Below, one piece after another: positions 16,771-29,929 of a stretch of 64,000 bases of DNA. A program made the translations under genes and the position numbers. The first letter of the stretch is position 1, and every line of letters begins with the position of its first letter. The notes below the pieces were generated by a model. The model saw nothing but the letters and a program-made list of their open reading frames with translations. It had not been told where the DNA came from and searched no databases. The stretch comes from Lepisosteus oculatus (lineage: Eukaryota > Chordata > Actinopteri > Semionotiformes > Lepisosteidae). The stretch is taken from positions 163,501 to 227,500 of the forward strand of contig NW_027168394.1 of the NCBI RefSeq assembly GCF_040954835.1, written 5' to 3'.

Positions 16771-16799
16771 CTTACCTGGCAGGGGAGATACCTTGATCA
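16771..16799 (+). pseudogene. U1 snRNA gene 1, 5' fragment (nt 4-32)
   Basis: CTTACCTGGCAGGGGAG through TTGATCA, equal to U1 nucleotides 4-32 and including most of the 5' splice-site recognition sequence. It lacks U1 nucleotides 1-3 and the U1 promoter, because U5-derived sequence abuts it. LINE copy A starts immediately after nucleotide 32. The 3' part of the same U1 gene resumes at 21939. Confidence 0.92.
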
Positions 16800-16866
16800 G
16801 CCTGTAGTTGGAGTAGTTGGATTGTTTTCTTGTTTTGTGGAAGCAGTGTTTGTTTTGCAGTTTGAG

Positions 16867-18287
16867 ATGGCAACCTTTGGATCCCGCAAGAATGCTGTAC
16901 ATTTTGAGCTTTTGGATGACCTCTTCATGGATCGTATGCAGTTCAGCAGAAAAGTGTTACAGAAGGAACTTGGCTTTGAACCTCGGCACTTGGATTTCAT
17001 CTTTGCTCTCCCAGGTCAGAAAGCATTTGAGGTTGTATTTGCTACCTATCCTCTGTTTGAACAATGCGTGGATGTCTTTGAGGCAAAAAGAGGGAAAGTT
17101 CCTGCACTTGAGAAGATCAACTTGCAGCCTCTGACACAGAGAGAGAGGAAAACGGTGCATGTTGTTATGTTCTCGGAACTGGCAAAGACGGAGGACATTC
17201 ACATCTGGCTTAACCAGTACTGCACCGTCCACCATGGAACTGAGGTTAGAGATGTTGACGGTATAAAAACAGGAGCAAATTCGAGGTTCGCTTACTACCG
17301 GACAATGTAAATGGAGGCTTAAGGCACCTGCCCTCTACAATCCAGCTGGGCGCCTGCAATGGCTATGTTTTTTATGTGGGACAACCAAAGGTGTGTCGGC
17401 GCTGTGGTGCTGTGGGACACCTGGCATCGTCCTGCACTGTGAAATGCTGCAAGACCTGTGGCAAACAGGGACATTTAGCCTCTGACTGTTCAATGCTGCC
17501 AAAGTGCAATTTATGTGGCTCGGAAGGACACGTTTTTAAGAACTGCCCTCACGCCTACGCCAATAAACTCAAAATGAGAAAGGATGAGGCAGTGCTTGTT
17601 TCAGCCAAACCGGCCCGAAAAGCCAAAGCAAACAACAAGTCAAACAAAGAACCCTTGTTGGACAAAGAGTCTCAGCCTCCAGCCAGGATCAGTCCTGCTG
17701 TGGCTCCGGGGCCGGTGGAAGAGAAATCCACTACGCTCCCACAACCGCAGACTGCACCAGACAAGCACGAGGGTTTGAAAACCCCCGAGAACAGCGAGGA
17801 CCCCTCCCCCACTCCTGCTCCTCAGAACGAGGGCCAGTGTGGGGCCCCCCGGTGGAGCGGGTCCAGCGACGATACCCAGGATTCAGCGGAGCTGCTTTTC
17901 TCAGACTCTGCAAGTGCTACAGATGCCCTCCTCTCCTCCATCCAGTCCGTCACGGAGGATCTGCAACAGCTGGTGGGTGAGGGGGAAGAGGAGACTGGTG
18001 CATCGGCTGCACCCCTTTCCCCTCAGTGCTCCCAGGAGCTGGACTTGAGGAAAAGGAAAAATGACTCTGTTTTCTCCCCGAGCGAGGAGGAAGGAGAGCA
18101 TGGCGATGGGGACAGCTGGAACCCCTCCACCCCTCTTTCTACCCCCTTCCTTGAAATGGACTCCGTGAACGCTTTTACTGCTGCCACCCTGATGAAGGCT
18201 CATTCAGAGGATGGCTGGCAGGAAATTGGTAAGAAGAAAAAGAAAGAGAAGGTAACAGGTGAGACCGAAGAGAAATGTGTTTTGTAA
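16867..18287 (+). pseudogene. LINE copy A ORF1, frameshifted
   Basis: Same protein as copy B ORF1 (MATFGSRKNAV start; C-x2-C-x4-H-x4-C knuckles three times). A 4-nt deletion near 17278 (CAAATTCG versus CAAGGAAATTCG in copy B) shifts the frame upstream of the zinc knuckles, so the RNA-binding part would not be made from the normal start. The 3' end overlaps ORF2 as in copy B. Confidence 0.93.
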
Positions 18288-29100: not shown

Positions 29101-29601
29101 AACATTCACAGAGATTTAGCCTGGAGTGTCGTCCACCAGTGCTTACCGGTACGAACTTTCTTGTACCGTAGGGGCCTCACCCCCAGCCCTCGCTGCGTTA
29201 GGGTGGGCTGCGGCGAGGAGGAGACTGTGACCCACCTCCTGTGGTCCTGCTTTTTTGCTAAGGCCTTCTGGGCACAGTTTGAAGATTGGTTGCAGGCTCT
29301 CTCGCCCCAATTTACCCTGACCGCTGCTTTCATCATATACGGCATCTCTCCTGTCAAGCTTCCTCCTGACGTGTTTGACAGGATCTGGGCCGTGGTGAAC
29401 AGTGGGAAAGACGCCCTGTGGAGAGTGAGGAACATGGGGCTGTTCAAAGGCATCGAGGTCCCAGTCAAGGCAGCAGGTAGCCTGGCCCTGTTCATCACCC
29501 GAGAGAACTATTACCTCAGAGATCTGTGGAGAGAAGGGAGGGAGGAAGCAGAAAATCTGTGGGAAATAGAGGGCATTGGACAGTATCTCAAGAAACTGTG
29601 A
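26182..29601 (+). CDS. LINE copy B ORF2, endonuclease-reverse transcriptase
   Basis: An open frame runs from an ATG at 26143 (1152 codons, overlapping ORF1). The natural start is probably MALNIISLNTRGIN at 26182, which aligns with the start of APE-type endonucleases. Numbering here is from 26143. The endonuclease shows the N/R motif, LQECAL, YCPTD, GGDFNCIL, RIDYCFVS and S236-D237-H238. The reverse transcriptase has GADGLPKEF, WRPLSLL, motif A D600-x5-D606 (KAFD), motif B RQGCPLSPLLF and motif C Y703-M-D-D706. A C-terminal zinc motif C1018-x4-C1023-x7-H1031-x4-C1036 is typical of L1/Tx1 proteins. All catalytic residues I can check are present, so the enzyme could be active. ORF2 would nick the target and prime reverse transcription in the nucleus. 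Confidence 0.95.
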   Translation: MALNIISLNTRGINDRVKCQSVFDYLQQREGDVLMLQECALAYQERYKSFEDRWDKGPSVWSGDNNNRASGVAILFKGWAFKLKSIQRVIDGRLLCVDVEWGTVNLRLINVYCPTDVGGRVELLKALSPLLLCSTDVIVGGDFNCILEHTDRQSSSPIKLDSSSLALQNLVQDFKLSDTYRCIYPTTAGYTWSGRNSSSRIDYCFVSERVKVVGVTLQPVFFSDHQALGCRVELQGGTVFGPGLWKLNTKLLENEGVVSRYKEKLSQWLSLQCLYGSVGEWWEEVKVRTKAFFMAEGRKAAARRRGVLARKQRQLQRLYTMLHSGFDVLEDIALLKKDIRSIAEESSRGVLLRSRVQFLEENEKCTRFFFRKVVGSKTVMESVVDEEGRERTEPSAILSCTEAFYSRLYSSTEVKDEDIHFFTSKLENILSEEDREVLERDLTVEELRQAMESLQKGKTPGADGLPKEFYCTFWDLLQDPLLLLFEESYKTELLPDSLREGTISLLFKKGAKNDIKNWRPLSLLGVDTKILSKALFLRLQNVVASLVGKEQTCGIAGRLMSDNLALLRDVCLYSEDRSLPLCILGVDLEKAFDRLNRQYLTSVLEHMKFGPIMRKWINLLYTGSNSRVMVNGNRSRTFEVCSGVRQGCPLSPLLFVLAMEPLACALRQDQAINGIPVPGSGGGEVKTSLYMDDVTLLLSDNASISRALQCCDRFSLASSAKINTSKSEIFYQNWREPKEGHDLRLQEKRIKVLGVYFGEEMGTVNWQNKLPILNKKLMQWKDRDLTMTGKVLVIKAELLPVLNFLASTFPIPHRVAAVLRRLMFQFLWGGKQERLRREIMYRPLPSGGKSVPDIATKLLCIFLASVLRGFATAPAARTWTYFSRLWVGREVFRVWGVRPKLDVPLSDTCPAIYGTVKSFLRSHPIGHIPLRDVSVQKLEDFVAPQNNRQTPVGILTSAQTRKVWKHTSSKFLCNIHRDLAWSVVHQCLPVRTFLYRRGLTPSPRCVRVGCGEEETVTHLLWSCFFAKAFWAQFEDWLQALSPQFTLTAAFIIYGISPVKLPPDVFDRIWAVVNSGKDALWRVRNMGLFKGIEVPVKAAGSLALFITRENYYLRDLWREGREEAENLWEIEGIGQYLKKL

Positions 29602-29804
29602 AAAACATTATCATGTTTAAGTAAAGAATGTGATTTGCACCAGAAAAAAAGAAATTGTTGCTATGTAACTGGTTCCGTGTCAAAATGTAATGAGATGTGA
29701 TCATATATACTGTTTTAAGTATGTATATTAATGTAAAGCTTTCTGATTTGTGATTTCCTGTATTTTTTTGTGAAAAGAAAATAAAGTTCTTAAAAATCGA
29801 AATG

Positions 29805-29929
29805 GGTTCACCCAGAGCGAGGCTCGGCCATTGCACTCCGGCTGTGATGACCCCTGCGAATTCCCCAAATGTGGGAATCTCGACTGCATAATTTCTGGTA
29901 GTGGGGGACTGCGTTCGCGCTCTCCCCTG
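29805..29929 (+). pseudogene. U1 snRNA gene 2, 3' fragment
   Basis: U1 from about nucleotide 40 to the 3' end, with stem-loops II-IV and Sm site. Differences from the intact gene include CCCAGAGCGAGG and TGTGATGACC, consistent with relaxed constraint after interruption. Confidence 0.95.

Follow-up and report, generated by a model that had tools for sequence, protein, structure and literature searches.

A gar LINE with a preferred site in U1 snRNA genes and a probable U1-headed RNA

Judged from its genomic copies, a LINE of Lepisosteus oculatus is confirmed to prefer one site in U1 snRNA genes, with a specificity that is strong, not absolute. The copies make it very likely that this is a two-ORF APE-type element that would be expressed as a chimeric RNA from U1 promoters and would use its U1-derived head to guide joining at the 5′ end.

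Interrupted and intact U1 genes in the window

The window, a stretch of 64,000 nucleotides, contains an uninterrupted U1 gene at 32775–32938 (plus strand, Rfam), which represents the empty target, and an Rfam search of the window also found interrupted U1 genes ending at 22063 and 29929. Copy B (24660–29804, plus strand) is a full-length LINE with a 5′ UTR of only 68 nt and a 3′ tail reading AAAAATCGAAAT(G). It lies between U1 nt 1–32 (24628–24659, plus strand), the same head as seen on other copies, and U1 nt 40–164 (29805–29929, plus strand). Copy A (16800–21938, plus strand) lies between U1 nt 4–32 (16771–16799, plus strand) and U1 nt 40–164 (21939–22063, plus strand). The first-pass annotation had proposed that both copies interrupt U1 at the same site, and Rfam and alignment agree with this, U1 being kept up to nt 32 on the left and from nt 40 onward on the right.

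The same annotation had described two occupied units of a U1/5S repeat and a third unit with an intact U1. The intact gene is there, and the 1.8 kb to the left of copy B are 98.8% like the intact unit. The left side of copy A does not fit this description, because U1 nt 4–32 are joined there to an inverted U5-unit sequence (16373–16773, minus strand), which rules out a normal U1 unit at this position. This U5 fusion recurs in 14 of the 84 5′ junctions read elsewhere, so copy A is a member of a DNA-amplified unit. 5S rRNA genes of the repeat lie at 33576–33694 (minus strand) and 22703–22821. The octamer ATGCAAAT, which we take to be the snRNA distal element, lies some 240 bp before U1 +1 in the unit of copy B (24388–24395, plus strand) and again in the intact unit, at 32534. 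The form “gagaTacc” common to copies A and B was considered as a sign of shared descent and dropped, since the T form is standard before the element: it was counted 89 times in the fetched loci, against zero for the A form (overlapping loci counted twice), and the A form was seen only in the window's intact U1. The earlier reading overlooked a third copy, C (4618–9223, minus strand), a 5′-truncated LINE with an internal gap of ~95 bp that lies in tRNA-unit DNA, outside U1.

Copy B encodes an ORF1 protein of 475 aa (24728–26155, plus strand) with two ZCCHC3-type RNA-binding domains and CCHC zinc knuckles (PF00098, 2.9e-11), which has a 96% match to Atractosteus spatula, and an ORF2 protein of 1152 aa (26143–29601, plus strand; second ATG at 26182) with an APE-type endonuclease, a reverse transcriptase (YMDD), and a zf-RVT domain (PF03372, 4e-15; PF00078, 1e-34; zf-RVT, 6e-8). 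An AATAAA signal (29780–29785, plus strand) stands 24 nt before the element 3′ end. In copy A, both ORFs are broken into shorter frames, for example 17376–18287, 18275–19885, and 19888–21633. The AP-like endonuclease and reverse transcriptase in ORF2 are those of an APE-type LINE, as are the 5′ truncation, target duplication, and short 3′ tail repeats of the copies. CCHC zinc knuckles in ORF1 are typical of the Tx1 clade, to which the first-pass annotation had assigned the element; this placement is tentative.

Target preference and independent insertion

The window's own genome (1.2 Gb) was searched for exact element 3′ ends, and in 231 of the 315 found, U1 sequence from nt 41 on follows within 30 nt; a reversed-pattern control gave no hits. 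All 30 loci cut from the 40 best 3′-UTR matches join U1, and 12 tail types occur among these 30. The insertion sets an AAATCG-type tail against U1 nt 40/41. These counts bear out the first-pass proposal of a target-specific LINE in U1, and the 231 3′ ends in U1 also answer its concern that most copies might lie outside these genes. Specificity is nevertheless not absolute, since copy C lies outside U1 and the left junction of copy A is the amplified U5 fusion. Among the first 30 exact tails listed, 13 fall in non-U1 DNA, and 12 of these 13 belong to truncated elements; together with copy C, they count against the U1-site model.

Three 5′-truncated copies begin at element nt 357, 585, and 710. 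In each, U1 nt 1–53 are retained on the left and the gene continues from nt 40/41 on the right, so that U1 nt 40–53 (13–14 bp) are duplicated. In a further locus, L079, one element is followed by a U1 remnant into which a truncated element has inserted, with a duplication of 13–15 bp. U1 sequence upstream of nt 40 is therefore not required for targeting, and target recognition through this sequence was rejected.

These copies bear on the possibility that one or a few U1 insertions spread as the U1/5S repeat underwent unequal crossing-over and gene conversion, with no true target preference. Such a history could account for the recurrence of the U5 fusion of copy A, for the one doubled head that L073 and L074 have in common, and for the divergence between copies A and B, which is similar in the right flanks (2.97%) and in the elements (2.08%, 107 differences at 5133 aligned sites); the tails outside U1 also speak for it. 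It does not account for three truncation points with an identical target duplication, for the variety of tail types, for the tandem insertion in L079, or for doubled heads with different break points. In addition, elements identical over about 1.7 kb occupy units with flanks that differ by 0.6–1.7%, and element and flank divergence are uncorrelated (r = −0.03, in a sample picked for 3′-UTR identity to copy B). We consider this history extremely improbable. Differing tails, truncation points, and 5′ junctions show that the element entered a multicopy gene at the same nucleotide in separate, independent events. The first-pass annotation had based the independence of copies A and B on their private differences, which alone are no proof given the similarly diverged flanks; independent insertion is shown genome-wide, by truncations, tails, and junctions. 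Duplication of an already occupied unit, which it had named as the alternative, applies to the lineage of copy A and to L073/L074 and is refuted as the sole cause by the distinct truncated copies with their target duplications, tails, and junctions.

U1 heads and the proposed route of integration

In most full-length copies read, U1 nt 33–39 are replaced and the element is joined seamlessly to U1 nt 32. Some full-length copies, doubled in U1 or located elsewhere, open with a stretch of U1 that runs up to nt 32. The 5′ search required U1 nt 25–32 and so sampled head-bearing copies only; head junctions numbered 563. Of 36 5′ ends, all but L055 and L070 were resolved. The start was at U1 nt 1–6 in 12 of 19 distinct heads and clearly upstream of U1 +1 in none, the scrambled junction of L138 having 4 nt that match upstream of +1. 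Doubled heads within U1 were seen in L038, L040, L050, L073/L074, L139, and L149.

A non-U1 left flank was found in 12 of the 84 5′ junctions read. Six of these copies (L106/L096, L112, L113, L114, L155, and L170) have non-U1 DNA on the right as well, and in four of the six a repeat of 6–13 bp occurs on both sides; one, L114, is a tandem array beside U2-like sequence. U1-headed full-length copies with no U1 on either flank are a new observation, as are the doubled-head copies within U1. For the other six, off-target insertion is not proven, since L147/L089 and L108/L128 have U1 on the right and L107, L109, L110, and L146 are resolved on the left side only; the idea that all 12 are off-target insertions was dropped on account of L147 and L108. 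L110 and L107 are older copies, 80% and 86% identical to copy B over the first about 500 nt, and both carry the head; an initial reading of L107 as having only 15 nt of element was discarded, its identity extending over about 494 nt.

Because the heads mostly start at nt 1–6 and none clearly beyond nt 1, transcription of the mobile RNA most probably begins at the U1 start site, with the U1 head of this RNA steering the joining at the 5′ end, as described for melanogaster-type R1 (PMC2718515). The U1 promoter would drive a chimeric RNA that runs from U1 +1 through nt 32 into the LINE. In another U1 gene, the endonuclease would then nick the bottom strand at nt 39/40, where reverse transcription would begin. 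When the cDNA reached the U1 head, this head would pair with the same sequence in the target U1, so that the junction came out seamless and the new copy was again linked to a promoter. In all other cases, the top strand would be cut near nt 53 and joined by end joining or microhomology, and the outcome would be a duplicated target or a second U1 head. A different source of seamless junctions could be gene conversion among U1 units. On balance, we lean toward a LINE that lacks a promoter of its own and lives on a chimeric RNA from the Pol II snRNA +1, the 32 nt of U1 serving as a homology arm that would restore full-length promoter-linked copies. If true, the LINE RNA would begin with the cap and 5′ end of U1, and with them the bases by which U1 pairs with 5′ splice sites. 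Transcription from snRNA-type promoters is generally regarded as inefficient over kilobases, which counts against transcription from the U1 promoter.

The head could instead be picked up during integration, through template jumping to the upstream U1 DNA of the target or through repair, without being part of the RNA. Seamless U1 junctions would be expected in this case too; template jumping by the R2 polymerase is discussed in PMC2718515, and there are slippage-like repeats in L138, L149, and L038, as well as heads beside non-U1 DNA with U1 on the right in L147 and the lineage of copy A. However, the six copies that are non-U1 on both sides carry the head with no U1 target to copy, and the clustering of head starts at nt 1–6, with none clearly past +1, also argues against it, so that we regard this origin as improbable. 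Marginally less probable still is a fixed U1-like 5′ 32-mer that the element captured long ago, with U1 as a landing site and not a promoter. Non-U1 copies with a head would then look just as they do, and the heads of the older copies L110 and L107 agree with such a tag, whereas truncated copies in U1 and the intact U1 show that nt 1–32 belong to the target gene, and full-length copies in U1 mostly have a single head, which a fixed tag would allow only if it recombined with the target.

Known target-specific elements and kinship

Melanogaster-type R1 is a site-specific LINE of 28S rRNA genes (PMC2718515). Like the gar LINE, it makes target duplications in 5′-truncated copies (14 bp in R1), and its precise full-length copies delete 9 bp of target, against about 7 in the gar LINE (PMC2718515). 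Full-length R1 RNA is inferred to carry upstream target-gene sequence, as we propose here, and in both elements the tag is retained at doubled-target junctions and in non-target insertions (PMC2718515). R1 tags comprise 6–27 nt of 28S ending at −9 (PMC2718515), whereas the gar tags mostly start at or near U1 nt 1, the 5′ end of U1 RNA, which points to a Pol II snRNA promoter. The gar LINE does not share the 28S rRNA target, and the likeness is one of junction features, protein kinship aside. R2, also in 28S, is co-transcribed with its host RNA gene, as proposed for the gar LINE, but its RNA is freed from 28S by a self-cleaving ribozyme (PMC3774820, PMC3414825), whereas the gar LINE would keep its U1 head; an Rfam gathering search of the window found no ribozyme families.

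Other target-specific LINEs of multicopy small-RNA loci in fish are Keno (U2 snRNA), Mutsu (5S), and Dewa (tRNA-Leu spacer) (PMC4640811, PMC3706591), all at genes or sites other than U1 nt 40. Keno is stated to have an apurinic-type endonuclease (PMC4640811) and is set apart by its U2 target. Utopia likewise inserts within an snRNA gene, U2, with families of strong and weak specificity, and differs from the gar LINE in this target and in its restriction-like endonuclease (PMC4640811). Zebrafish Dada-U1 elements are DNA transposons specific for U1 snRNA genes, with a DDE transposase and a proposed 6-bp duplication at another U1 site, GCGAAT (PMC3706591); ORF1 and ORF2 of copy B matched RNA-binding, zinc-knuckle, endonuclease, and reverse transcriptase families only, with no DDE transposase.

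We found no U1-specific LINE in the literature searched, and a LINE that targets U1 would be new. SINEs with snRNA heads were reportedly described by Kojima in 2015. For U1, the 2015 Utopia paper, which cites Kojima 2015, gives the Dada DNA transposon alone and no U1-linked Tx1 element (PMC4640811). The gar LINE would be a vertebrate counterpart of R1 that relies on an snRNA promoter, and its natural copies, which would reveal RNA start, cut sites, and second-strand joining, could make the 5′ half of LINE integration, the less understood half, testable. They also raise the question of how the genome copes with losing many of its U1 genes. For builders of targeted gene-insertion tools, an APE-type element that uses a short target site within a conserved gene may be of interest.

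In a reverse transcriptase tree built without Tx1, Keno, or Mutsu references of known identity, copy B groups with 12 unnamed relatives (100/100) and, at the next level, falls in a 23-row set that also holds sequences from Takifugu, goby, newt, and frog (99/98). Among named sequences, ORF2 comes closest to a hypothetical protein of a newt (39%) and a reverse transcriptase of Takifugu (38%). No relative was confirmed by tblastn in viral contigs (250 pattern stretches) or genome contigs (45). The relatives P0001–P0019 are about 50% identical.

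Occupation of a single U1 site

Copy B (24660–29804, plus strand) has two open ORFs, of which ORF1 (24728–26155) encodes two RNA-binding domains of the ZCCHC3 type along with CCHC knuckles, and ORF2 (26143–29601) an AP-type endonuclease, a reverse transcriptase, and a zf-RVT domain. Its 5′ UTR is 68 nt, its 3′ UTR ends in ...AATAAAGTTCTTAAAAATCGAAAT(G), and it is flanked by U1 nt 1–32 on the left and nt 40–164 on the right. The first-pass annotation had copies A and B sharing both junctions, U1 up to nt 32 and again from about nt 40. This holds for copy B and for the right junction of copy A (16800–21938, plus strand), which is that of B, whereas on the left copy A, whose ORFs are split, keeps only U1 nt 4–32, joined to inverted U5-unit sequence. 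The third U1, described as lacking an insertion, is indeed uninterrupted in Rfam (32775–32938).

The genome searched comprises 1.200 Gb in 813 contigs and contains the window as positions 163501–227500 of contig C772. All 42 scored U1 candidates, a sample of 22,159 first-look candidates rather than a census, were full-length. Of 791 first-look candidates for the copy B 3′ UTR, the best 40 were scored, all being 99 to 100% identical; in all 30 loci cut from these best 40, U1 follows from nt 40/41, and 12 AAATCG-type tails can be told apart among them. This sample was selected for identity to copy B, and a less selected one was obtained with the 19-nt element tail. Of its 315 exact genomic copies, 231 (73%) are followed no more than 30 nt on by GTTCACCCAGG, the U1 sequence from nt 41, which is a lower bound since substituted U1 flanks escape the exact pattern; reversed-pattern controls gave 0. 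Among the first 30 exact tails listed, 17 lie within U1 (16 flagged by script, plus L105, whose U1 has substitutions) and 13 outside, the latter being 12 truncated copies of 167 to 1279 bp and one full-length copy (L096). The element thus has a strong preference for U1, with mostly truncated copies at other sites. The proposal of a LINE specific to one U1 site is borne out by these flanks, and the contrary outcome, most copies lying outside U1, was not found.

Separate insertions and shared descent

The 5′ regions were fetched for 36 of the best 40 3′ matches, that is, all but copy B and three others. Twenty-four are seamless with U1 nt 32, two of these carrying a single substitution where they join, five have a doubled U1 head, three are 5′-truncated, one is a copy A-type U5 fusion, one is a two-element tandem, and two (L055 and L070) were not assigned to any junction class.

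Duplication of an already occupied unit had been named as the main alternative to repeated insertion, and it does account for part of the material: L073 and L074 have one common junction, and the U5 fusion of copy A recurs in 14 of 84 5′ junctions read, so that shared descent of occupied units also occurs. The truncated copies speak against it as a general explanation. They begin at element nt 357, 585, and 710, each with U1 nt 1–53 on the left and U1 from nt 40/41 on the right, a target duplication of 13 to 14 bp. Elements identical over ~1.7 kb occupy U1 units with flanks 0.6 to 1.7% apart, and element and flank divergence are uncorrelated (r = −0.03; the mean flank divergence of 6.9% is probably inflated by poorly aligned pairs). 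At L079, a truncated element lies within a U1 remnant immediately 3′ of another element's tail, with a duplication of 13 to 15 bp; U1 upstream of nt 40 is therefore dispensable for insertion.

U1 heads and a proposed mechanism

Headed copies were sampled with a pattern of U1 nt 25–32 plus the element's first bases, which covers only copies carrying these nucleotides and occurs 563 times in the genome (control, 0). The 84 junctions read, first in list order and including four fetched earlier (L066, L073, L074, and L106), were sorted by script and by eye. Fifty-one are seamless in U1 units, and two more have diverged or shortened upstream U1 (L124 and L174). Besides the 14 U5 fusions, there are four doubled heads, one scrambled junction (L138), and 12 non-U1 left flanks. 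Of the first 100 head junctions listed, 39 fall on one 60 Mb contig, G000:C14. All of these were read, and 37 lie in U1-like units and two do not (L155 and L170), so that this chromosome has many occupied U1 units scattered along it.

Six of the 12 copies with a non-U1 left flank have non-U1 DNA on the right too: L106/L096 (head from nt 3/4, 12–13 bp repeat on each side), L112/L131 (nt 1, no flanking repeat seen), L113/L132 (nt 2/3, 6 bp repeat), L114/L133 (nt 5/6), and, at the same point of one C14 repeat, L155/L198 (~nt 9) and L170/L199 (nt 4/5), both with a ~9 bp repeat (CGGTTTTCT). L114/L133 starts a head-to-tail LINE array (G000:C16:20318918–20339442; spacing 5126–5127 bp) whose 5′ end adjoins U2 snRNA-like sequence, and the two inner joints read begin ~19 nt into the element. 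The C14 pair (13.65 and 31.58 Mb) differ in heads and tails; their repeat (…GGTTTTCTGAAG), the first four bases of which resemble the U1 target GGTTCACC, is a possible secondary target. Two copies have U1 on the right, L147/L089 (nt 42–164) and L108/L128 (G000:C13:33800738; nt 40–101 only, then C and A runs), the latter of which may be a reinserted read-through U1–LINE–U1 RNA. In the remaining four, no right side turned up at the expected place (L107, head from nt 1; L109, nt 12/13; L110, nt 13; L146, ~nt 10). L107 and L110, whose first ~500 nt match copy B at 86% and 80% identity, are older copies, and the head is thus not confined to the youngest ones.

In the doubled heads inside U1, target nt ~41–52 is joined to a head starting at nt 1/2 (L040), 4 (L050), 5/6 (L139), 3 (L149), ~14–19 (L038), or 23–26 (L073/L074). 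These six, the 12 non-U1 left flanks, and the copy A fusion, counted once, make 19 distinct heads, of which 12 start at U1 nt 1–6 and none clearly extends upstream of nt 1. L138, with a 4-nt match (ACTC) to U1 upstream sequence, was kept out of this count.

A U1 head on copies without U1 on either side is most simply explained if it was brought along with the element RNA, and heads ending at nt 1 point to an RNA that would start at U1 +1. The copy B unit has the octamer ATGCAAAT ~240 bp upstream, as in the intact unit, to which the 1.8 kb left of copy B is 98.8% identical. From the junction structures, which were observed, we infer promoter use, cut sites, and head–target pairing. By analogy, the junctions closely fit the model published for melanogaster-type R1, the 28S rRNA gene LINE; in that model (PMC2718515), full-length RNA bears upstream target-gene sequence, which pairs with the target to give a short precise target deletion, truncated copies have 14-bp duplications, junctions are otherwise of the doubled-target type, and non-target copies carry tags.

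Kinship and other features of the window

ORF1 is 96% identical, over 80% of its length, to a "ZCHC3 protein" of Atractosteus spatula (P0092), which makes a gar the most likely host. Among the 8000 candidates sharing most words, the closest ORF2 relatives (P0001–P0019) are 46 to 53% identical, followed, among named ones, by a Takifugu reverse transcriptase and a goby protein (38%) and newt and frog proteins (39%). In a 38-row tree, copy B falls in a 13-row group (100/100) nested in a 23-row set with the Takifugu, goby, newt, and frog sequences (99/98). Together with ORF1, this grouping makes the gar LINE a likely Tx1 member. For snRNA genes, the elements reported by 2015 were, according to PMC4640811, limited to Keno and Utopia in U2 plus Dada-U1 and Dada-U6. 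The excerpts available of other papers name only Dada for U1 (PMC8869645, PMC3706591) or name no U1 LINE (PMC13188248, PMC5753468), and PMC5753468 cites a 2015 paper for sequence-specific Tx1 elements in crocodilians. No U1-specific LINE was found in the literature searched, whose coverage excludes most subscription journals and apparently Repbase Reports.

Rfam places one uninterrupted U1 gene, 5S, U4, U5, and many tRNA genes in the window. A third copy of the LINE, copy C (4618–9223, minus strand), which lacks the 5′ end and has a ~95 bp internal gap, terminates in tRNA-unit DNA, element-free versions of which lie at ~34.5 and ~45.5 kb. Eleven U5 genes stand in tandem at 10193–15386 (period 508 bp), with an additional, inverted U5 beyond them (16522–16635). 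A shortened 5S-like sequence, followed by a partial duplicate of unit sequence, occupies 30567–31040, and 30614–31040 is 98% alike to 31427–31853. Two ORFs at 60652–62655 (minus strand), of which 61720–62655 is weakly similar, below cut-off, to a gag-type aspartyl protease, are possibly a remnant of an LTR-type element.
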